Part shown: positions 52 through 10,124 of the stretch, piece after piece
Layout: every line of letters starts with the position of its first letter
Numbering within the stretch: position 1 is the stretch's first letter
DNA from: Gammaproteobacteria bacterium
GTDB lineage: Bacteria > Pseudomonadota > Gammaproteobacteria > QNFN01
Direction of reading: 5' to 3'
Length of the DNA: 18,601 bases
NCBI GenBank assembly: GCA_003645555.1
Contig: QNFN01000003.1
Coordinates: 1-18,601 of the forward strand
Translations under genes and position numbers: made by a program
Notes under the pieces: model-generated
Told to the model about the DNA's origin: nothing
Databases searched by the model: none
Seen by the model: the letters and a program-made list of their open reading frames with translations, nothing else

Positions 52-1407
52 CTAAGGCACCTCGGCACGCAGCCGTCGCACATGGCGGTAGAGAGTTCGC
101 GCGCTGACCCCAAGCAGGCGTGCGGCCCGGGCCCGATGGCCGCCGGTCTCCTCCAGGGCGGTGAGCACGGCTGTGTCGTCGATCCGACGACGAGCTGACG
201 CAAGTCCGTGACCGGTAGCACGGCCCAACTCTGGTGATGGTGACCAGCCACCGTGGTGACCACGACCCTTCCCACTCTCGAGCGCCAGATGCTCGGGCCC
301 GATCGGACCGTCGGCGGCAAGAATGGCGGCGCGTTCGATGATGTTGCGTAACTCGCGAATGTTGCCCGGATAGTCGTGTGCGAGCAGAGCTTCAATCACT
401 TCCGGCGGCAACGGAAGGTGACGGTCGCCGTCTTCGGAACGGCCAAGGAAATGCTCGGCTATTGCCGGGATATCGCTCTTGCGCTCGCGAAGCGGTGGCA
501 CGTGGACCGGGAATGCGGAGAGCCGATAGTAGAGATCCTGGCGGAACTCACCACAATCAACCATCTGCTGGATGTCGCGGTTGGTGGCCGCGATTACGCG
601 CACGTCGATTTTATGGTAATCGGTGCCGCCAATGCGGCGGATGGCACCGGTCTCCAGCACGCGCAGCAACTTGGTCTGTAACGCCAGTGGCAACTCGCAC
701 ACCTCATCAATCAACAGCGTGCCGCCGTGGGCGGCCTCGAACAGTCCTTTCTTGAGCATCGTCGAGCCGGTGTAGGCCCCCTTTTCGCTGCCGAACAGTT
801 CGTTTTCGATCAGGTTCTCACCCAGGGTTCCGCAGTCGACAATGATGAACGGCCCTTTCGGTCGGCTCGAATACTGATGCAGGTACTTGGCCACACACTC
901 CTTGCCGGCACCACTTTCGCCGGTCAGCAGCACCGTGGTCATGGTCGGTGCGACCCGTTGCAGCAAGCTGGTCATGCGCAGGATCGTTCGCGAACGACCG
1001 ACCAGCAGGTCGTCCTTCTCTGGCGTGTTCACCGGGTAGATGAACTCGCCCATGTAGAGCACCTCGCCTTGATCATCAAGCAGCGGTGTGGCCTGGATCT
1101 GCACGTACTCGGGCCGGTCGTCGGCATTGAAGTGGACGTGCATTACCTGGGTGGTCTGCTTGTTGCCAAATACCGACTCCATCGGGCAGTGCTCGCCGTA
1201 GTTGTGGCACGGCGCCTGGGCGTGGTGCGAGACCTCGTAGCAGTGGCGCCCGATCAGCGCATCGGCCTCGATGCCGTAGCGCTTGCGGTAACTTCGGTTG
1301 GCCGCAATGATCCGGTAGTCGGCGTCGATGACGACGAACGGATCCGGCAGAATGTCGATGATCTGGTCGCATGAGGGCTTACCCCTCATGATTGTTTTGG
1401 CGTCCAC
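52..1407 (-). CDS. sigma54-dependent transcriptional regulator (PAS - AAA+ - Fis HTH)
   Basis: This is an enhancer-binding activator that would use ATP hydrolysis to open sigma54 promoters. From the chosen start it has 451 residues. An N-terminal PAS domain (about 15-125) carries a Cys/His cluster (C56, H61, H62, C67, H68, C74). The AAA+ domain follows, with Walker A GESGAGKE (163-170), the sigma54-contact loop written GAYTGS (210-215, usually GAFTGA), Walker B LLIDE (231-235) and the YPGNIREL sensor region near 346. A Fis-type helix-turn-helix lies at about 412-447. There is no receiver domain, so the input is probably sensed directly by the PAS domain. The start is GTG at 1405-1407, because a strong GGAGGAGG-type ribosome site lies just upstream (complement of 1415-1424). 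An in-frame GTG at 1473 would add 22 residues but lacks such a site. The target genes are unknown; none of the neighbours shows an obvious -24/-12 promoter. Confidence 0.93.
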
Positions 1408-1534
1408 AGTCGTTCCCTCCTCCCATGCGATCAATTGTGACATGACCGTCATGACAACGCCTGATGCTGCCACCGTGTCCTGAGGCTGTCAAAGTGGATC
1501 GGCTGTCTGCATGGCGGCCCCCGGACGGGCCGCG

Positions 1535-1540
1535 TACAAT
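1535..1540 (+). promoter_or_regulatory. candidate ancestral pyrC -10 box (TACAAT)
   Basis: TACAAT matches the sigma70 -10 consensus at five of six positions and sits in GC-rich DNA. A -35 box 17 bp upstream is poor (around 1512-1517). With the element at 1575-1733 and one TTAA copy removed, this box would lie about 37 bp before the pyrC ATG, a normal promoter distance. The rest of the 333-bp gene-free stretch 1408-1740 holds the regulator's leader and the element; nothing else was recognised. Confidence 0.3.
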
Positions 1541-1570
1541 CGCCGGACGCCGGCTCGACGGACCCCGCGA

Positions 1571-1737
1571 TTAAGGAACCTCTGATCAAATCATGAACTC
1601 GTATCTGGCGCCAAGAATGTCCAGCTTGTTCGTTGCAAAGCTTCGCAATAGCTAGCTATTGCGTGCGCTTTACGCCTCAAATCTGAACATTCTGAAGCAC
1701 CATCTACTTCGTCCAGACTTAATCAGAGGCTCCTTAA
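1571..1737 (+). mobile_element. family A foldback element, copy 1 (159 bp, TTAA duplication)
   Basis: The element body is 1575-1733, flanked by the direct repeat TTAA at 1571-1574 and 1734-1737. The ends are inverted: GGAACCTCTGAT at left and ATCAGAGGCTCC at right. The centre is a perfect 20-bp palindrome, CGCAATAGCTAGCTATTGCG (1644-1663), within half a base of the geometric middle. The two arms are also loosely complementary along their length (for example AGAATGT at 1614-1620 against ACATTCT near 1687-1693), so the whole element can fold into one long hairpin. It encodes no transposase. It matches copy 2 in inverse orientation at 147 of 159 positions with no gaps. This is the architecture of a MITE-like non-autonomous element. 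A 4-bp TTAA duplication fits the YTAR target rule of the IS5 subgroup, but the mobilising transposase is inferred. Confidence 0.85.
1725..1729 (+). promoter_or_regulatory. SD-like AGAGG supplied to pyrC by the element end
   Basis: AGAGG lies 11 nt before the pyrC ATG and is part of the right terminal repeat of the inserted element. The reconstructed empty site has no comparable purine run at normal spacing. In the folded leader this AGAGG would pair with CCTCT of the left terminal repeat (1579-1583), so access by the ribosome may depend on whether the hairpin forms. Confidence 0.4.
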
Positions 1738-1740
1738 CGC

Positions 1741-2802
1741 ATGACCCTGCCCGACACGATCACCCTGACCCGTCCGGACGACTGGCACCTGCACCTGCGC
1801 GATGGCCCGGCTCTGGCCGCCGTAGTCGGCGCCTCAGCGGTGCAGTTCGAGCGTGCCATTGTTATGCCCAACCTGCGCTCGCCGGTGACTACCACCGACC
1901 GGGCAGAGGCTTATCGCGAACGCATCCTGTCGGCCCGGCCCGATGGGAGCGCTTTTTCTCCATTAATGACGCTCTACTTGACCGACCGCACCGCGGCTGA
2001 TGAGATTCGGGCTGCATGTGCCAGCGGCTTTATCCACGGCGTCAAGCTCTATCCGGCCGGTGCGACGACCAATTCAGATGCTGGCGTGACCGACCTACGC
2101 CAGGCCTGGCCGGCACTCGAAGCCATGCAGGCGGAGCGCTTGCCGCTGCTGGTGCACGGTGAGGTGACCGATCCGGAGGTCGATGTTTTTGACCGTGAGG
2201 CCGTCTTTATCGAGCGTGTACTGGCGCCGCTGATGAACGACTTTCCCGAGCTGCGCGTGGTCTTTGAGCACATCACCACGGCCGATGCGGCGGATTTCGT
2301 CATCACCGGACCGGAACGGTTGGCAGCCACCGTGACGGCCCACCACCTGTTGCTCAACCGGAATGCCTTACTGGTGGGTGGCGTTTGGCCACACCACTAC
2401 TGCCTGCCAGTGCTCAAGCGCGAGCGTCATCGTCAGGCCCTTCTGGCTGCGATCGGTACCGGCTGCAACCGTCTGTTTCTCGGCACCGACAGCGCCCCGC
2501 ACCCGCGTGGTGCCAAGGAGTCGGCCTGTGGCTGTGCCGGGATATTCACCGCTTACACGGCGTTGGAACTCTATGCCGAAGCATTCGCCGAGGCCGGCAT
2601 GCTCGATCGCCTCGAGGCCTTTGCCAGCCACCACGGACCGGACTGGTACGGTCTGCCACGCAACGTTGGCACGTTGACACTTGAGCGACAGCCAACACCG
2701 GTTCCGGAGGCCCTGCCCTTCGGCAACGACACCCTGGTGCCGTTTCGGGCCGGAGGCGAGGTGGCCTGGACCGTCCGGAACGCGACCGGGAGGATGGCAT
2801 GA
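1741..2802 (+). CDS. pyrC: dihydroorotase PyrC
   Basis: PyrC catalyses the reversible cyclisation of N-carbamoyl-aspartate to dihydroorotate in cytosolic pyrimidine synthesis. At 353 residues it is close to the class II homodimeric enzyme of E. coli. The zinc-site motifs are all present: [10 protein letters not shown] (His16 and His18), the carboxylated lysine in [11 protein letters not shown], the His of LLVHGEVT, the His of FEHITT and the catalytic Asp of GTDSAPH. The ATG at 1741 aligns with the usual N-terminus just before the HLHLRD motif. The start codon is only 3 bp beyond a foldback element's target duplication, so the native leader has been interrupted. In enterobacteria the pyrC leader controls translation in response to CTP and GTP through alternative transcription starts and a hairpin; that arrangement cannot be intact here. 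The gene overlaps rnt by 4 bp (ATGA), implying coupled translation. Confidence 0.97.
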
Positions 2803-3440
2803 ACGAGGCGGCTTCGACCCCGAGTCGGATGGCGTCACGCTTCCGCGGCTTTCTGCCCGTCGTGGTGGATGTCGAAACCGGCGGTTTCGAGGCCAAGACC
2901 GACGCCTTGCTCGAAATCGCCGCGGTGACACTGCGCTTCAATGAGGCGGGGCAGATCGAACCCGAAGCGACACATGCCTGTCATGTCGAGCCATTCGAGG
3001 GCGCCAACCTCGATCCCAAGGCGTTGGCGTTCACCGGTATCGATCCGTGGCACCCGTTTCGTTTTGCCAAGCCCGAGCGCGAGGCGTTACTGGCGGTATT
3101 TCAGCCAGTGCGCAAGGCCGTGCGTGACGCCGGCTGCAACCGGGCGATCCTGGTTGGGCACAATCCGCTGTTCGACCTCGGCTTTCTCAATGCCGCGGTG
3201 GAGCGAACCAAAATCAAGCGCAACCCGTTCCACCCGTTCAGCAGTTTCGACACGGCAACGCTCGGTGGCGTGGCCTACGGCCAGACGGTTCTGGCCCGCA
3301 TCGCCGAGGTGGCGGGGATTGACTGGGATGCGGGCGAGGCCCATTCGGCGATCTACGATGCCGAACAGACCGCAAAAATCTTCTGTCGGATCGTCAACCT
3401 GTGGGACACGCTGCGGGAGGCGAGTCCTCCCGCCGAGTAG
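2799..3440 (+). CDS. rnt: ribonuclease T
   Basis: RNase T is a dimeric 3'-5' exoribonuclease that trims tRNA CCA ends and matures 5S and 23S rRNA 3' ends; it also degrades single-stranded DNA. The protein has 213 residues against about 215 in E. coli. The DEDDh catalytic set is visible: Asp and Glu in VDVETGGFE near the N-terminus, Asp in [12 protein letters not shown], and the His and Asp of [11 protein letters not shown] near the C-terminus. The start overlaps the pyrC stop in an ATGA junction, so the two genes form one transcription unit. It is convergent with grxD with only 3 bp between the stop codons. Its presence is the best single clue for a gammaproteobacterial host. Confidence 0.97.
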
Positions 3441-3443
3441 TTC

Positions 3444-3764
3444 TCAGGAGGCCGCTTCCGCGCCTCCGACCATCTGTTTCAATTGACCTTGCTCGTAGAG
3501 TTCAAGCGTGATGTCGCACCCGCCTACGAGTTCGCCGTCAATGTACAGCTGTGGGAAGGTCGGCCATTCGGCATAGCGTGGCAGGTTCTCGAAAATTTCC
3601 GGATCCTGAAGCACATTGACGTAAGCGAACTCCGCCTGGCACGCTTCGAGTGCCGCCGCGGTACGGCTCGAGTAACCGCACATCGGGAACTGCGGCGTGC
3701 CCTTCATGAACAGCACCGTCCGGTTCCCCTTGACGAGTTTGTCGATCCTTTCCATAACATCCAT
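3444..3764 (-). CDS. grxD: monothiol glutaredoxin, Grx4 family
   Basis: Grx4-type monothiol glutaredoxins bind a [2Fe-2S] cluster with glutathione, often together with BolA proteins, and take part in iron-sulfur trafficking. This one has 106 residues with the family landmarks MKGTP, the active site CGYS, WPTFPQLYIDGELVGG (glutathione-binding TFP cis-proline region) and the CDI motif. The active site is usually CGFS; Phe to Tyr is conservative and keeps the single Cys. ATG at 3764 has an AGAGG ribosome site 8 nt upstream (complement of 3773-3777). It lies 90 bp downstream of the amidotransferase gene on the same strand; the AT-rich gap could hold its own promoter. It is convergent with rnt. 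Loss of the C-terminal extension seen in E. coli Grx4 is common in this family. Confidence 0.96.
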   Translation of the reverse strand: MDVMERIDKLVKGNRTVLFMKGTPQFPMCGYSSRTAAALEACQAEFAYVNVLQDPEIFENLPRYAEWPTFPQLYIDGELVGGCDITLELYEQGQLKQMVGGAEAAS

Positions 3765-3829
3765 ATGGATATCCTCTAATATTCTGGATTACAGTATGAC
3801 GATGGTCCCATGACGGCAGATGGACCGGA

Positions 3830-3843
3830 ATGACCTGGGTCAT
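3830..3843. repeat. 14-bp palindrome between amidotransferase gene and grxD
   Basis: ATGACCTGGGTCAT has perfect 6-bp arms around a TG centre. It lies 12 bp beyond the amidotransferase stop and about 66 bp before the grxD start. It has no T-run on either side, so it is not a convincing intrinsic terminator. It could be an operator for grxD or chance. Confidence 0.25.
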
Positions 3844-3854
3844 CAACCAGCGGT

Positions 3855-5639
3855 CTACACCCCGTCGACATTACGCTGCAGCCAGAACTCCAACAGTGCC
3901 AGGTGCCACAGTTTGCTGCCCTGGATTCGGGTCAGGTGCGCTTCCGGTTCGGCCAGCAGCCTGGCGACGTAGGCCTGGTTGAACAACCCACGGCCGCGAG
4001 CCGCCGGGCTGCCGAGCACGTCGCGCATGAAATCGAGGAACGGTCCACGAACGTACTTAAGCGCCGGTACCGGAAAGGAACCCTTGGGCCGGTCGATGAC
4101 CCCGTCGGGCAGCAGTCCGCGCGCAATCTGCTTCAGGGGATGCTTGCCACCTGACTTCAATCTCAGCTCGGGTGGCATCTGTGCGGCCAGTTCGACCAGT
4201 TGATGATCGAGGAACGGTACCCGTGCCTCGAGACCCCAGGCCATGGTCATGTTGTCGACCCGCTTTACCGGATCGTCGACGATCAGTGTGGTGATGTCGA
4301 GGCGCAGTACCTGGTCCAGGAAGGTGTCGGCATCAGGCTCGGCGAGGCGTGCGGCGACCAGTGCCGCCGTGTGATCATCGCCATGGTAGGCGGAATCGAC
4401 AGTGGCCAGGAACTCGTCATGATCACGGTCGAAGTAATGGTTGCGGAAACGTTCGACGGCCGGTAGCGACGCTTCCTCGGCCAGCATCTTCTGGTACCAG
4501 AAGTAACCGCCGAACACCTCGTCGGCGCCCTGCCCGCTCTGCACCACCTTGACCTCGCGCGAGACCTGCTCCGCCAGCAGGTAAAAGGCAATGGCGTCCT
4601 GACCGACCATCGGCTCGGCCATGGCATCAACCGCTTCGGGCAGTCGCTTGAGCACCTCGTCGTTGGGAATGAGGTAGCGATGATGGCGGGTGGCGAAGCG
4701 CTCGACCACCTGGTCGGAGTACTCGAACTCGCTGCCCTTCTCCTCCGGTTGGTCTTCGAAGCCGACAGAGAAAGTCAGGATGTCACTGACCCCGGCCTCG
4801 GCGAGCAGGCCGACCAGTAAGCTGGAGTCGAGTCCACCTGACAGCAGCACACCGACCGGCACATCGGCAATCCGGCGCCGTTTCTCGACCGCACTGATCA
4901 GCGCCGTGCGAACCGCCTCGGCCCACTCCCATTCGCTGAGTGGCCGCTCCGGCCGTCGCGCCGGCAGATGCCAGTAGACCCGCTCGCGCCGGCTGCCGTC
5001 GACCTCGATGGTCATGGTCGTCGCTGGCGGCAGCTTGCGCAGGCCCTTGAGGATGGTCCGTGGCGCCGGGATGACGGCGTGCAGCGTCAGCTGGTGATGC
5101 AAGCCGACCGGGTCGATGGCGGTAGCGACGCCGCCGACGGCGAGCAGTGCCTGGCTGCTGGAGGCGAAGCGCAAGCGGCCTGCATCGTGCGTGTAGTAGA
5201 GCGGTTTGATACCGAGACGATCGCGGGCCAGGAACAGGCGCCTCCTGGTGGCATCCCAGATGGCGAAGGCGAACATGCCGTGCAGCCGTTCCACACACTT
5301 CTCGCCCCAGGCGTGGTAGGCCTTGACGATGACCTCACTGTCGCCGTCGGAGAAGAAATGGTAACCGCTCGCCCGCAGCTCTTCGCGCAACTCAGGATAG
5401 TTGTAAATGGTGCCGTTGAAGACCAGCGCCAGGCCGAGCTCAGCATCAACCAGTGGCTGGCTGGCGCGATGCGAAAGGTCGATGATCGCCAGGCGCTGGT
5501 GGCCAAACGCGACTGGACCGTCGGCATGGCTGCCAGCGTGGTCGGGCCCGCGGCGACGCAGGCGCCCCATCATCCGTCCGACCGCCCCGAGATCGGGGGG
5601 GCGGCTGTCGAAACGCAACTCGCCACAAATTCCGCACAT
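3855..5639 (-). CDS. asnO: asparagine synthetase-family glutamine amidotransferase, probably N-acetylglutaminylglutamine amidotransferase
   Basis: The 594-residue protein has an N-terminal class II glutaminase domain starting MCGICGE (catalytic Cys2, exposed after Met removal) and a C-terminal synthetase domain with the PP-loop SGGLDSS (267-273) and SGQGADEVFGGY. This fold amidates a carboxylate using glutamine and ATP. The opening MCGICGELRFD, the LHAVIPAPRTIL stretch near residue 186 and the length resemble the subgroup that makes the osmoprotectant N-acetylglutaminylglutamine amide (AsnO in rhizobia and pseudomonads) more than AsnB. In those genomes it normally sits beside a GNAT/ATP-grasp ligase and a peptidase; here the neighbours are grxD and the divergent sodB, so the assignment rests on sequence resemblance from memory. 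ATG at 5639 is preceded by a GGGAGAGAGG purine run. Plain asparagine synthetase remains the alternative. Confidence 0.9.
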   Translation of the reverse strand: MCGICGELRFDSRPPDLGAVGRMMGRLRRRGPDHAGSHADGPVAFGHQRLAIIDLSHRASQPLVDAELGLALVFNGTIYNYPELREELRASGYHFFSDGDSEVIVKAYHAWGEKCVERLHGMFAFAIWDATRRRLFLARDRLGIKPLYYTHDAGRLRFASSSQALLAVGGVATAIDPVGLHHQLTLHAVIPAPRTILKGLRKLPPATTMTIEVDGSRRERVYWHLPARRPERPLSEWEWAEAVRTALISAVEKRRRIADVPVGVLLSGGLDSSLLVGLLAEAGVSDILTFSVGFEDQPEEKGSEFEYSDQVVERFATRHHRYLIPNDEVLKRLPEAVDAMAEPMVGQDAIAFYLLAEQVSREVKVVQSGQGADEVFGGYFWYQKMLAEEASLPAVERFRNHYFDRDHDEFLATVDSAYHGDDHTAALVAARLAEPDADTFLDQVLRLDITTLIVDDPVKRVDNMTMAWGLEARVPFLDHQLVELAAQMPPELRLKSGGKHPLKQIARGLLPDGVIDRPKGSFPVPALKYVRGPFLDFMRDVLGSPAARGRGLFNQAYVARLLAEPEAHLTRIQGSKLWHLALLEFWLQRNVDGV

Positions 5640-5807
5640 GGCCTCTCTCCCAGGGACCGGCGCATGCTAACAGAGCACCAGCGGCCAACGATAACTGACC
5701 AAACTCAATGCGTCTGCCGCCTGGGTGGTCTACATTTTCGCCATAGCAGGCGCACCGCGCCACGGCTTCCGCAATCCCGTCGCGCCGCGCGCGATTTCAC
5801 CGTATTC

Positions 5808-5812
5808 AGGAG
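5808..5812 (+). promoter_or_regulatory. ribosome binding site deciding the sodB start
   Basis: AGGAG lies 8 nt before ATG 5821. The resulting protein starts [20 protein letters not shown], which lines up with E. coli SodB. A longer in-frame extension to 5725 has no ribosome site and no family match. Confidence 0.7.
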
Positions 5813-5820
5813 CATCAGGC

Positions 5821-6405
5821 ATGGAACACGTACTACCCCCACTCCCCTACGACATGGATGCACTCGCACCGCACATCTCTCACGAGACGCTCGACTACCA
5901 CTATGGCAAGCATCACGCGACCTACGTCACCAATATCAACAACCTGATCAAGGGCACCGAGCACGAGTCGCAGACGCTCGAGGAGATCGTGCGCAGCGCC
6001 GCCGGCGGCATTTTCAACAACGCCGCCCAGATCTGGAATCACACCTTCTACTGGAACGGCCTGAGCCCGAACGGTGGCGGTGCAGCCAGCGGCAATGTCG
6101 GTGACGCCATCAATGCCTCGTTCGGCGGTTTCGACAACTTCAAGGAGGAGTTCACCAAGAAATCGGTCACCCTGTTCGGCTCCGGCTGGGCCTGGCTGGT
6201 CAAGAACGGCGATGGCTCGCTGGCCATCGTCCAGACCAGCAACGCCGCCACGCCGCTGACCACCGACCAGGTGCCGCTGCTCACCTGCGACGTATGGGAG
6301 CACGCCTACTACGTCGACTACCGTAATGCCCGACCGAAATATCTCGAGGCGTTCTGGAACCTGGTCAACTGGGATTTCGCCAACGCCAACCTTGGGAACC
6401 TCTGA
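5821..6405 (+). CDS. sodB: superoxide dismutase [Fe]
   Basis: SodB dismutates superoxide to hydrogen peroxide and oxygen in the cytoplasm. The 194-residue sequence follows E. coli FeSOD closely. Metal ligands are His in LDYHYGKHH (about residue 27), His in IWNHTFYW (about 74), and Asp and His in [13 protein letters not shown] (about 158 and 162). The AAQ and FYWNGL signature favours iron. The last residues and stop codon are unusual: codons for Asn193 and Leu194 and the TGA (6403-6405) lie inside the inserted foldback element. Removing the element and one CTTG copy restores CTT GGC TGA, giving a 192-residue ancestor ending NANLG. The change adds two residues beyond the conserved fold and should be harmless. 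The native terminator now lies about 180 bp past the stop, beyond the element. Confidence 0.97.
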
Positions 6406-6557
6406 TTAAGTCTGGACGAAGTAGATTGCGCTTCAGAATGTTAAGATTTGAGGCGCAAAATACACGTAATAGCTAGCTATTGCGAAGTTTTGCAACGAAA
6501 AAGCTGGACATTCTGGGCGCCAGATACGAGTTCATGATTTGATCAGAGGTTCCCTTG
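6391..6557 (-). mobile_element. family A foldback element, copy 2 (159 bp, CTTG duplication)
   Basis: The body is 6395-6553, with direct repeat CTTG at 6391-6394 and 6554-6557. Ends are GGAACCTCTGAT at left and ATCAGAGGTTCC at right, a perfect 12-bp inverted repeat. Its reverse complement aligns with copy 1 without gaps, with 12 substitutions in 159. The central palindrome is degraded by one base on one side (GTAATAGCTAGCTATTGC). It is inserted at codon 191-192 of sodB and carries the gene's current stop codon. There is no coding capacity. The rest of the gene-free stretch 6406-6725 holds the sodB terminator and the argD leader hairpin. Confidence 0.87.
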
Positions 6558-6583
6558 GCTGAAGCGCGTCGCCACAACGCGAA

Positions 6584-6617
6584 GGACGGGGCAACCACGG
6601 TTGCCCCGTCCGCCTTT
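6584..6617 (+). terminator. rho-independent terminator of sodB
   Basis: GGACGGGGCAAC (6584-6595) and GTTGCCCCGTCC (6600-6611) form a perfect 12-bp GC-rich stem with a CACG loop, followed by GCCTTTT. In the reconstructed pre-insertion sequence it would start about 20 bp after the sodB stop, the usual position. The element now separates it from the coding region. Confidence 0.85.
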
Positions 6618-6683
6618 TAGCCACCCTTTCTGGGTGCATTGCAAAGCCCTATCCACTTCAGTACCATCAATTTTTTCGTAGAC

Positions 6684-6709
6684 GGCGGCTCGCCAGGGCT
6701 GCCTTTTTT
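6684..6709 (+). terminator. terminator-like hairpin in the argD leader
   Basis: GGCGGC (6684-6689) can pair with GCTGCC (6698-6703), with one G-T pair and an 8-nt loop, followed directly by six T residues (6704-6709). It ends 16 bp before the argD ATG. It may be a second terminator for upstream transcripts or an attenuator acting on argD. No leader peptide rich in Arg codons is evident. Confidence 0.4.
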
Positions 6710-6725
6710 GTTTGGGCTGGACGGT

Positions 6726-7895
6726 ATGACCGATGCACTGATGACCACCTACAACCGGCTTCCGGTCGCGTTTGCGCGCGGCGACGGCGCCTGGCTCTGG
6801 GACGAAGACGGCAACCGCTACCTCGACGGCCTGTGCGGTATCGCGGTGACCGGGCTCGGTCATGCACATCCCGACATCAGCGCGGCACTGGCCGACCAGG
6901 CCGCGACGCTTCTGCACACTTCCAATTTCTACCGCATCCCGCTGCAGGAACAACTCGGCGAGCGGCTGTGCGCCCTCTCCGGCATGGATCGCGCCTTCCT
7001 GTGCAACTCAGGCGCCGAAGCCAACGAGGCCGCGCTGAAACTCGCTCGTCTCCATGGCCACAGCCGGGAGATCGACCTGCCGGCGATCGTGGTGATGGAG
7101 CAGAGCTTCCATGGGCGCACGCTGGCGACCCTCTCCGCCTCCGGCAGCCGCAAGGTCCAGGCCGGTTTCGAACCTCTGGTCCAGGGGTTTATCCGTGTCC
7201 CTTACAACGACCTCGAAGCGGTACGGGCCGTGGCGCGTAACTCGCCGACGGTAGCGGCCGTGCTGGTCGAACCGGTGCTCGGTGAAGGGGGCATCCGTGT
7301 ACCCGACCCGGGTTACCTGGCCGGCCTACGCGAAATCTGCGACCAGAACGACTGGCTGCTGATGCTCGATGAGATCCAGACCGGCATCGCCCGCACCGGC
7401 AAGCTGTTTGCATTCCAGCATGAAGAGATGGTGCCGGACGTGATCACCCTGGCCAAGGCGCTGGGCAACGGCATGCCGATCGGCGCCTGCCTGGCGCGTG
7501 GCACGGCCGCAGCGCTGTTCCAGCCGGGCAATCACGGCACCACCTTCGGCGGCAACCCACTCGCCTGCCGGGTCGGGATGTCGGTGCTCGACGTGGTCGA
7601 ACGTGACGGTCTGGCCGCACGCGCCGCCGAACTCGGTGACCGCCTGGCCCAGGAGATCACTACGGCCGAACTGCCTGGCGTGATCGAGGTACGCCATCAC
7701 GGCCTGATGATTGGCATCGAGCTCGATCGGCCGGCCACGGCACTGCCAGCCCTGGCACTCGAACACGGCCTGCTGCTCAACGTCACCGCCGAGCGGGTCA
7801 TTCGCCTGTTGCCACCGATGATTCTGTCCGACGACGAGGCTGGTGAACTGGTCGTGCGGCTCGCCTCGGCCGTGCGTGCTTTCGCCGCGGCTTGA
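6726..7895 (+). CDS. argD: acetylornithine aminotransferase
   Basis: ArgD is the PLP enzyme that transfers an amino group from glutamate to N-acetylglutamate semialdehyde in arginine synthesis, and often also serves succinyl-diaminopimelate synthesis. The protein has 389 residues. Class III aminotransferase landmarks are [15 protein letters not shown] (phosphate-binding region), [13 protein letters not shown], the Asp of [10 protein letters not shown] that contacts the pyridine nitrogen, the Schiff-base Lys in [14 protein letters not shown], and [10 protein letters not shown]. The ATG at 6726 starts [16 protein letters not shown], the usual N-terminus of the family; an upstream in-frame extension would run through the leader hairpin and is not supported. 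The stop is 13 nt before argF, indicating an argDF operon. Confidence 0.96.
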
Positions 7896-8885: not shown

Positions 8886-9941
8886 ATGCCTTTACTCCAG
8901 GTCGTCGATATCGATTGCCGCTACGGCACGCAAACGGTCGTGCATGGTGCATCGCTACACGTGCACAAGGGCGGTTTCGTTAGCCTGCTCGGTCCGAGTG
9001 GCTGCGGCAAGACCACCATCCTGCGCGCGATTGCCGGTTTCGAACCGGTTCATGATGGTGAGATCCGCCTGCGTGGTGAGACGGTCTCCGCACCGGGCCG
9101 TAGCGTACCGCCGGAGCAGCGGCGCCTCGGCATGGTGTTCCAGGACTACACCCTGTTCCCCCACCTCAGCGTGGCCGACAACATCGGCTTCGGTCTGCAC
9201 GGACAGGATGCGCCTGCGCGTCGGCACACGGCCGACGCCATGCTCGACCTGGTCGGATTGTCCGGCTTCGGCCCACGCTACCCGCACGAGCTGTCGGGCG
9301 GCCAGCAGCAACGTGTCGCGCTGGCACGAGCGATTGCCCCCGGCCCGGATCTACTGTTGATGGACGAGCCCTTCTCCAGTCTCGACACCGACATGCGCGA
9401 ACGGCTCAGCATCGAAGTGCGCCAGATTCTTGAGGAGCGAGGCGTGACCGGCATCCTGGTGACCCACGACCAGTTTGAGGCGTTCGCCAGCAGCGAACAG
9501 GTCGGCGTTATGCACCAAGGGCAGATCCTGCAGTGGGACAGCCCGTACAACCTCTACCATGAACCGGCCAACCGCCTCGTCGCCGACTTCATCGGTCAGG
9601 GACGTTTCCTGCGCGGCACGCTGTTGGCACCCAACGCGCTCGAGACCGAGATCGGCCTGATCCGTGGAGACCGCGCCTACGGCTGGCCGCGCGGTACGCC
9701 AGTCGATGTTCTGGTACGACCGGACGATGTCGTGCCTGACGACGGTGGTGATGCCTTGCGTTGTGAAGTCGTCAACAAGGCGTTCAAGGGGGCGGAAATT
9801 CTCTACACTTTGCGCCTGCCGACCGGCAGCAACCTGCTGTCGCTGTTCCCGAGTCACCATGAACACCACATTGGCGATACCGTTGGTGTGCGGCTGGCTC
9901 CACGCCACCTGGTGCTGTTTCGCGCCGATCGCAACACCTAG
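8886..9941 (+). CDS. ABC transporter ATP-binding protein, Fe(3+)/FbpC-like
   Basis: The 351-residue protein is an importer ATPase: Walker A GPSGCGKT (36-43), Q-loop in MVFQDY, signature LSGGQ (136-140), Walker B LLLMDEP (156-162), and switch His in VTHDQFEA. The C-terminal third (about 240-351) is a TOBE-like regulatory domain. The PPEQRRLGMVFQDYTLFPHLSVADNIGFGL segment style is closest to ferric-iron FbpC/AfuC and spermidine/putrescine PotA ATPases. No permease or binding protein is nearby in the window, so the substrate is uncertain. It follows argF after 71 bp and could be read from the arginine operon. Its TAG stop (9939-9941) is part of the CTAG that abuts the 157-bp foldback element. 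Confidence 0.9.
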   Translation: MPLLQVVDIDCRYGTQTVVHGASLHVHKGGFVSLLGPSGCGKTTILRAIAGFEPVHDGEIRLRGETVSAPGRSVPPEQRRLGMVFQDYTLFPHLSVADNIGFGLHGQDAPARRHTADAMLDLVGLSGFGPRYPHELSGGQQQRVALARAIAPGPDLLLMDEPFSSLDTDMRERLSIEVRQILEERGVTGILVTHDQFEAFASSEQVGVMHQGQILQWDSPYNLYHEPANRLVADFIGQGRFLRGTLLAPNALETEIGLIRGDRAYGWPRGTPVDVLVRPDDVVPDDGGDALRCEVVNKAFKGAEILYTLRLPTGSNLLSLFPSHHEHHIGDTVGVRLAPRHLVLFRADRNT

Positions 9942-10102
9942 TGGGCCATGCGCAAAGTTCGGTTACTGTTCGCTTTGCCAAAAGGCGTATCTCTGCGTTG
10001 GAAAAGCTTGGAATAGGCCCACTATTCCCGCACTTTTCCGCCTTGATCTACCCCTTTTGGCTGTGCTCCTTTAGTTACCGAATTTCACGCATGGCCCACT
10101 AG
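9938..10102. mobile_element. family B foldback element (157 bp, flanked by CTAG)
   Basis: The body is 9942-10098 between CTAG at 9938-9941 and CTAG at 10099-10102. Ends are TGGGCCATGCG and CGCATGGCCCA, a perfect 11-bp inverted repeat, and complementarity continues with interruptions through TTCGGT and CCAAAAGG towards the middle. The centre is GGAATAG, GCCCA, CTATTCC (10010-10028). It encodes nothing. The segment 9996-10016 shares 16 of 21 bases with the corresponding half-centre of family A copy 2 (6477-6497, reverse strand), so the two families look related in their core but not at their ends. CTAG is palindromic, so it may be a 4-bp target duplication or an outer part of the inverted repeat; it fits the IS5-subgroup YTAR rule. 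Confidence 0.75.
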
Positions 10103-10124
10103 GGAACCTCTGAATCAAAGGTCC
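10103..10124 (+). repeat. internally deleted family A remnant
   Basis: GGAACCTCTGAATCAAAGGTCC starts with 11 bases of the family A left end and closes with an inverted partner, AAGGTCC, like the right end. It is what remains if almost all the interior is lost. It directly abuts the CTAG at the right border of element B. No clean 4-bp duplication is visible (CTAG left, CCTG right). Confidence 0.5.

Follow-up and report, generated by a model that had tools for sequence, protein, structure and literature searches.

A 159-bp mobile element with IS5-type ends in a gammaproteobacterial genome carries a structured core found also in hairpins with dissimilar ends

Background

Miniature inverted-repeat transposable elements (MITEs) are usually classed by the insertion sequence (IS) that has matching ends. 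Here, we analysed an 18,601-nucleotide stretch of a Gammaproteobacteria bacterium (positions 1 to 18,601 of contig QNFN01000003.1, assembly GCA_003645555.1; hereafter the window) which contains two copies of a non-coding element of ca. 159 bp. Taking all the evidence together, this element is a MITE, most likely moved by an IS5-type enzyme, and its core is probably a portable module that changes ends and on which selection acts in single-stranded form, most likely as RNA. Among the closest systems described is MITEPsy1/ISPsy2 of Pseudomonas syringae, which, according to the accessible text of its description, is similar in having probably IS5-derived ends (one being GTATCCTCTGAAAAAGCC), in being non-coding and in generating a 4-bp duplication at CTAG or YTAA, and whose transposition has been observed experimentally (PMC3189936). 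That text also mentions close copies in relatives of P. syringae, as well as sequences resembling it from other Pseudomonas and from Marinobacter and Klebsiella; MITEPsy1 differs from the present element in its length (100 bp), and no conserved core or strand-specific structure is described for it there (PMC3189936).

Other small mobile hairpins that are found near genes include ERIC, Correia/NEMIS and YPAL, for some of which effects at the RNA level (RNase III, RNase E) have been reported (PMC2229807, PMC2267715, PMC10969869). In the accessible parts of these sources they differ by having other lengths, 5'-TA-3' termini for several of them and duplications of 3-26 bp for YPAL, and no end-independent core is described. 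QMITE2 of Coxiella burnetii resembles the present element in size (150-190 bp), in its location at gene 3' ends, in occurring partly outside its species and as a source of small RNA, but the accessible text reports duplications of 7-11 bp and a GTAG repetitive extragenic palindromic (REP) sequence within it (PMC5896051). All these systems, MITEPsy1 included, were set against the element by description and not by sequence. A further candidate for comparison is R6, a repeat of 177 bp in P. fluorescens (PMC2718517). No description of the element or of an end-independent core pattern was found in the literature covered, outside of which lie most subscription journals, preprints and supplements, and the letters of the end and core sequences matched only papers that seem unrelated.

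Results and discussion

Copies, target sites and an empty site

A preliminary description of the window, made from its letters alone, had reported two 159-bp bodies in opposite orientation, with 147/159 identity and no gap, flanked by TTAA direct repeats (copy 1) or CTTG direct repeats (copy 2) and having a AATAGCTAGCTATT centre without coding capacity. All of this was recovered here (see Table 1), neither body containing a frame of 80 aa or more. The 12-bp terminal inverted repeats are also present, except that the two ends of copy 1 differ by one mismatch (GGAACCTCTGAT and GGAGCCTCTGAT).

In the genome from which the window derives (G000; an assembly of 2.21 Mb in 392 contigs, 86% complete), GGAACCTCTGAT with at most one mismatch occurs 237 times (122 + 115) versus 6 (4 + 2) for a reversed-pattern control, an abundance that is far above chance. 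The stretches of this genome that were examined contain 68 full and 19 partial copies, with 92-100% identity among the 40 best-scored. An exact 4-bp duplication borders 44 of the 65 copies that have both flanks (CTAA 12, TTAA 11, TTAG 9, CTAG 1 and 11 others), and 33 of these 44 correspond to YTAR (Y, pyrimidine; R, purine), the target that had been proposed.

Empty sites were compared at two locations, the gene names (sodB and pyrC) being assigned by reading translations. At the sodB site, a relative of the same genus (G001), in which no match to the IS5-type-ended element was found, is uninterrupted and has CTCG in place of the CTTG of the window, a difference of one substitution; the sodB end is GCCAACCTCGGCTGAGG in the relative and GCCAACCTTG-element-CTTGGCTGAAG in the window. 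Neither of the refuting outcomes named in the preliminary description applies at this site. The relative likewise lacks the element at the pyrC site, in a flank too diverged for a single TTAA to be seen. Given their small size, terminal inverted repeats, lack of a transposase gene, dispersed copies, duplications and empty sodB site, both repeats belong to a non-autonomous transposon of ca. 159 bp, a MITE as had been suggested, that inserts mostly at YTAR with a 4-bp duplication.

This accounts for the arrival of copies 1 and 2 but is incomplete with regard to the host range, the constrained structure, the shared core and a third element of the window. The copies, the YTAR sites, the matching ends and the empty site require nothing beyond an ordinary type II MITE of an IS5-group IS, in which the hairpin would stem from a palindromic origin, be corrected at the DNA level by template switching between the arms and have a slowly changing core. 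What bears on this alternative is the structure of the body.

A structure conserved on one strand

The two strands of the element fold unequally, and the strongly folding one is here named the S strand. For copy 1, S has a free energy of -87.7 kcal/mol versus -52.2 for the other strand, and S was the more stable strand in every member of three sets: 66/66 copies of the own genome (2 of the 68 having been excluded for an identity of 84% or less or for being short), 22/22, and 56/56 diverse sequences. The latter form an alignment (A2) of 45 of the 52 listed references plus 11 others, in which mean free energies are -75.3 kcal/mol for S and -53.5 for the other strand; the preference is found for the arms alone (56/56) and for the core alone (54/56). 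In the same sequences, 93.9% of cells are standard pairs, 47 of the 64 stem pairs have changes on both sides, and the covariation score is 0.380, versus 0.160 in shuffles and 0.085 or less for slid partners. Cells with G-U versus A-C number 384:48 for the S pairing, a count that leans to S by construction, which the free energies do not; the figures are 187:45 for pairs predicted on both strands and 384:103 for their union. Unpaired letters of the S strand are 47% A and 6% T, and the core consensus with its conserved unpaired letters reads CAAGGCG - stem - GCA - AATAGCNNGCTATT - AAG - stem - CAACG. With its near-constant length, compensatory stem, strand-biased folding and conserved unpaired letters, the body is not an arbitrary remnant of an IS.

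Several observations nevertheless weigh against selection of the element as a single strand. Within the own genome, one-sided departures from Watson-Crick pairs comprise 22 G-U, 17 A-C and 32 other mismatches, and this variation has little sign of pair keeping or of strand preference, which is what an ordinary MITE would give; DNA-level correction would also produce the double changes. The S strand is not favoured in G602 (1 of the 14 rows of the core and arm comparison described below) or in one weak match at locus L185. On the other hand, an ordinary MITE predicts no strand preference, when S folds better throughout the diverse set, arms alone included, and it leaves unexplained both the invariant unpaired letters and the occurrence of the same core with dissimilar ends. 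We therefore regard this alternative as quite unlikely.

A second alternative is that selection acts on folded single-stranded DNA, with extrusion of the S strand on one of the replication strands and its recognition by a recombinase, a primosome or another factor, for which attC sites of integrons and the end hairpins of IS200/IS605 offer a comparison. That case equally predicts a strand preference and the conservation of unpaired letters, and because folding with DNA parameters gave the same strand preference (55/56), RNA and folded single-stranded DNA are inseparable here. The ends and 4-bp duplications are, from what is known of the family, typical of a DDE transposase acting on double-stranded DNA, and we know of no shared recombinase gene, none having been searched for; selection as folded DNA thus appears unlikely. 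From the constraint we infer a function, and RNA rather than folded DNA as its form.

No match was found in Rfam 15 at gathering thresholds for 16 loci, and a search of window positions 1400-6800 at E of 10 or less returned two matches only, neither of which lies within an element and each of which scores far less than its gathering threshold. If the core acts as RNA or as folded DNA, it would be a structured element of very many genomes that is unlisted in Rfam 15 and would allow the reason for the folding of bacterial MITEs to be tested directly. At three loci (L212:151-300, L226:2727-2870 and L231:1094-1240), an extra short hairpin (CACCAA.AGTAGGCGC...GCGACG) is inserted in the internal loop that faces AAGGCG.

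The same core in hairpins with dissimilar ends

The core, of ca. 50 nt, recurs at a nearly constant location in hairpins whose terminal repeats are dissimilar. These were detected by a pattern scan and by two models, R1 (a covariance model of 56 sequences) and R2 (a model of the core), with which scoring was limited to the 7-12 best candidates of each genome and E-values are rough. In a Piscirickettsiaceae assembly, 160-bp repeats have the same hairpin and ends GAG(A/C)GCTTTGCA. Other end types among R1 matches include GAGACCTTTGCA, GATACCTTTGCA, GGTGTGAATGAATCC, GTCCTGTCTCGCC, AGAGCCTGTTCACGA, GTCGGCACGGCGATGG and TATCAATCACACTG, and two types, GTGGTGTTTCGCACATAATG and GACTGTAACAGCC, co-occur in one genome. 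Twelve other-end types were compared with copy 1, 10 obtained via the pattern scan or R1 and two, the type of the third element and a row from G201, via R2; rows with mis-set ends (e.g. L390, L401, L432, L434 and L435) were excluded. In 12/12 the core (identity 0.53-0.83) exceeds both the 5' arm (0.23-0.61) and the 3' arm (0.31-0.55), the arms being the yardstick for these values and no null being computed. One row from another class has IS5-type ends as here, with arms 0.79-0.82 and core 0.65 identical to copy 1.

In a chosen set of 56 core sequences (A3), 25 of the 26 pairs have changed on both sides and the score is 0.591, versus 0.129 or less for slid partners. Some sequences with other ends were part of the R2 training set; for the types obtained via R2, an element with like ends had already been matched in G002 by R1. 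At E of 1e-4 or less, R2 matched 137 of the 369 class genomes, among them G001, which has two core matches (best E 4.8e-12) though no IS5-type element, so that other end types occur in the genus.

Some points reduce the weight of this pattern. The end types GAGAGCTTTGCA, GAGACCTTTGCA and GATACCTTTGCA resemble one another and GGACACCTCTATTAATTC could have drifted from an IS5-type end, which leaves ca. 10 dissimilar types. Most of the other end types yielded no target duplication and had their ends set solely by the best inverted repeat; duplications were seen for the type of the third element (CTAG and like), for L386 (GTAC) and for L388 (TCA, 3 bp). Hairpins with other ends are presumably mobile as well.

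We propose that an IS5-group transposase would move the copies in trans, that the core hairpin would be a portable module under selection as a single strand, most likely RNA in read-through transcripts, and that this module could persist in the long term by acquiring the ends of any transposase that happens to be available. A bolder claim, which we advance tentatively and hold to be somewhat short of probable, is that the core module is the true unit of descent. The module, present in ca. one third of the class genomes sampled as well as in a family belonging to another class, would persist by exchanging its terminal repeats and would thereby be carried by unrelated DDE transposases. The usual logic of classing is reversed here, since the middle stays while the ends change. 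If the core is indeed the unit of descent, this would be a class of mobile elements defined by core and not by transposase, a bacterial counterpart of the CORE-SINEs of animals, which have a conserved centre with different ends in each family; as these are retrotransposons and not DNA elements, they serve as an analogy only.

Host range

The pattern scan of named genomes gave at least 88 stretches, 80 of which, from 43 assemblies, were examined. Among the matches listed are Chromatiaceae, Thiotrichaceae, Ectothiorhodospiraceae, Sedimenticola, tubeworm symbionts, Methylophaga, Thiomicrorhabdus and Lysobacterales; the element of Sedimenticola selenatireducens DSM 17993 is at L214. In the matches listed, 52 of the 58 elements with both ends found measure 158, 159, 160 or 161 bp (5, 31, 15 and 1, respectively), and 27 of the 58 have exact duplications, 22 of which are YTAR.

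At E of 1e-3 or less, R1 matched 110 of the 369 class genomes, the own genome included, and 47 of these 110, in 35 families, had matches below 1e-15; the class was taken as Gammaproteobacteria from the names of matching assemblies. In a sample of the phylum, 66 of 398 genomes matched R1, consisting of 24 of the same class, 41 from one family of another class (f207) and 1 other; the match in G612 had an E-value of 5e-9. In nine loci of f207 that were read, S folds better in 9/9, and exact 4-bp repeats are found in four (CTAG in 3 and TAAA in 1). Plasmids and phages had no blastn match to copy 1, and viral contigs had no exact match to the core pattern.

IS elements with the same ends

The preliminary description had proposed that copies are mobilised by an IS5-subgroup transposase and that a full IS with the same ends should be sought. 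YTAR duplications and the existence of such IS in other genomes agree with this proposal, but none was found in the own genome: neither a DDE_Tnp_1 (PF01609) match nor a relative of L098 was detected in its incomplete and fragmented assembly, from which the mobilising IS may have dropped out. A truncated transposase in G072, associated with a matching right end, was the starting point for a search of the 369 class genomes. Several of the hits belong to complete elements (L117, L119, L122, L123 and L124), which measure 1.17-1.19 kb, contain frames of 319-330 aa and have the 15-bp MITE ends exact at one or both of their ends. Exact 4-bp flank repeats occur for L117 (CTAG), L122 (TAAG) and L123 (ATAA), while those of L119 are unequal (CTAA/TTAA) and L124 adjoins a contig edge. 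Two tested transposases score 354 bits against the IS5 family model NF033581, the cut-off of which is 140. L119 comes from the genus of G058, and the MITE end in G058 is identical to the L119 end over the first 19 letters. The ends of Escherichia coli IS5 are presumably similar too.

The IS5 family thus has the same terminal repeats, and a CTAG duplication in L117, but differs in encoding a transposase; similarity between MITE and IS is limited to ca. 15-23 bp of the ends with nothing convincing internally, which makes the MITE a type II element by the published division as given in the accessible part of its source (PMC10969869). From these ends and target sites, movement in trans by a borrowed IS5-type enzyme is the most likely route. 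Against a tight partnership, a related IS5 transposase does not predict the element in the 369 class genomes (21/60 genomes with versus 89/309 without, p = 0.36), nor do strong element matches follow it (8/60 versus 39/309, p = 0.83), and the partner is therefore often absent. No R2 match to the core was found within IS elements in 53 loci, taken around transposase matches and from G001 flanks.

Placement relative to genes

None of 68 copies spans a predicted gene, and none of 154 did so with stricter gene calls (1/86 with the crudest calls). Of the 154 copies, 24 start exactly after the stop codon of a gene, out of 98 gene 3' ends located within 100 bp. Such a pattern could reflect a host-domesticated signal of gene ends, a terminator or mRNA stabiliser, that is no longer mobile. 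The exact duplications, the empty site and the high identity of the best copies point instead to recent movement, no T-run follows the hairpin in either window copy, and sense orientation is inconsistent, which makes a domesticated signal very improbable. The placement agrees with YTAR, a target that includes TAA or TAG, together with selection against harm, and a target that contains a stop codon is a simple reason for tolerated insertions.

With less confidence, a local effect may be added to the proposed RNA module, by which an RNA hairpin that is protected, or bound by protein, close to the ends of genes would render insertions tolerable; the YTAR target would help by recreating TAA or TAG stops, and the element ends would add stops in two frames. 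Orientation counts give no clear support to such a service to host genes. In tandem contexts, the first antisense:sense counts were 19:5 in the own genome, 19:5 in named genomes and 5:13 in G058, and with stricter, still crude, gene calls they were 13:4, 15:7 and 4:7, respectively (pooled 32:18, p = 0.065). An S RNA serving host genes would be expected in sense, when the pooled counts lean, without significance, to antisense.

In the window, copy 1 lies between pyrC and a divergently transcribed regulator gene, with 7 bp between its end and the pyrC ATG (1741). At the end of copy 1, an AGAGG motif (1725-1729) is located 11 nt upstream of this ATG, and the pyrC ribosome-binding site may, as judged from the letters, come from the element. 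Copy 2 has inserted in the final codons of sodB, the C-terminus of which (6391-6405) changes from NANLG-stop in the relative to NANLGNL-stop in the window, the stop TGA (6403-6405) being supplied by the element.

A third element and other features of the window

Features of the window are listed in Table 1.

Table 1. Location of the elements, cores and target duplications in the window
Feature	Position	Strand	Basis
Target duplication TTAA, copy 1 left	1571..1574	.	Direct sequence comparison
MITE copy 1, 159 bp	1575..1733	- (S strand = minus)	Sequence comparison and folding
Structured conserved core, copy 1	1614..1689	-	R2, E = 5.5e-23; sequence in R2 training set
Target duplication TTAA, copy 1 right	1734..1737	.	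Direct sequence comparison
Target duplication CTTG, copy 2 left	6391..6394	.	Sequence comparison; empty site in relative
MITE copy 2, 159 bp	6395..6553	+ (S strand = plus)	Sequence comparison; empty site in relative
Structured conserved core, copy 2	6439..6514	+	R2, E = 3.8e-22; sequence in R2 training set
Target duplication CTTG, copy 2 right	6554..6557	.	Direct sequence comparison
Third element, 157 bp, same core, dissimilar ends (TGGGCCATGCG)	9942..10098	-	R2; boundary by eye, consistent with L161 and L170
Core of third element	9979..10055	-	R2, E = 1.8e-16; outside training set
22-bp end-to-end IS5-type terminal repeats (GGACCTTTGA-TTCAGAGGTTCC), bodiless	10103..10124	-	By eye

The two elements counted previously are both present, and to these must be added a third, divergent element and a bodiless pair of repeats that had not been listed. 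On the window, R2 matched copies 1 and 2, the third element and, with two weak opposite-strand matches (E 0.005 and 0.07), the palindromic centre. The third element is flanked by CTAG, as identified by eye (9938-9941 and 10099-10102). Five more copies of its type occur in stretches of the own genome (L161, L007, L170, L171 and L017), with flanks CTAG, CTAA or TTAG, and all six were outside the R2 training set.

The 22-bp repeat pair adjoins the third element, and a comparable pair of 26 bp is found at L082:1501-1526. Finally, L185:1680-1858 contains a pair of weaker core matches, located side by side with one on each strand, that have ends like GGGCCTGTTAACACTA; one of them folds better on the other strand, and they represent a possible third end type of the own genome.

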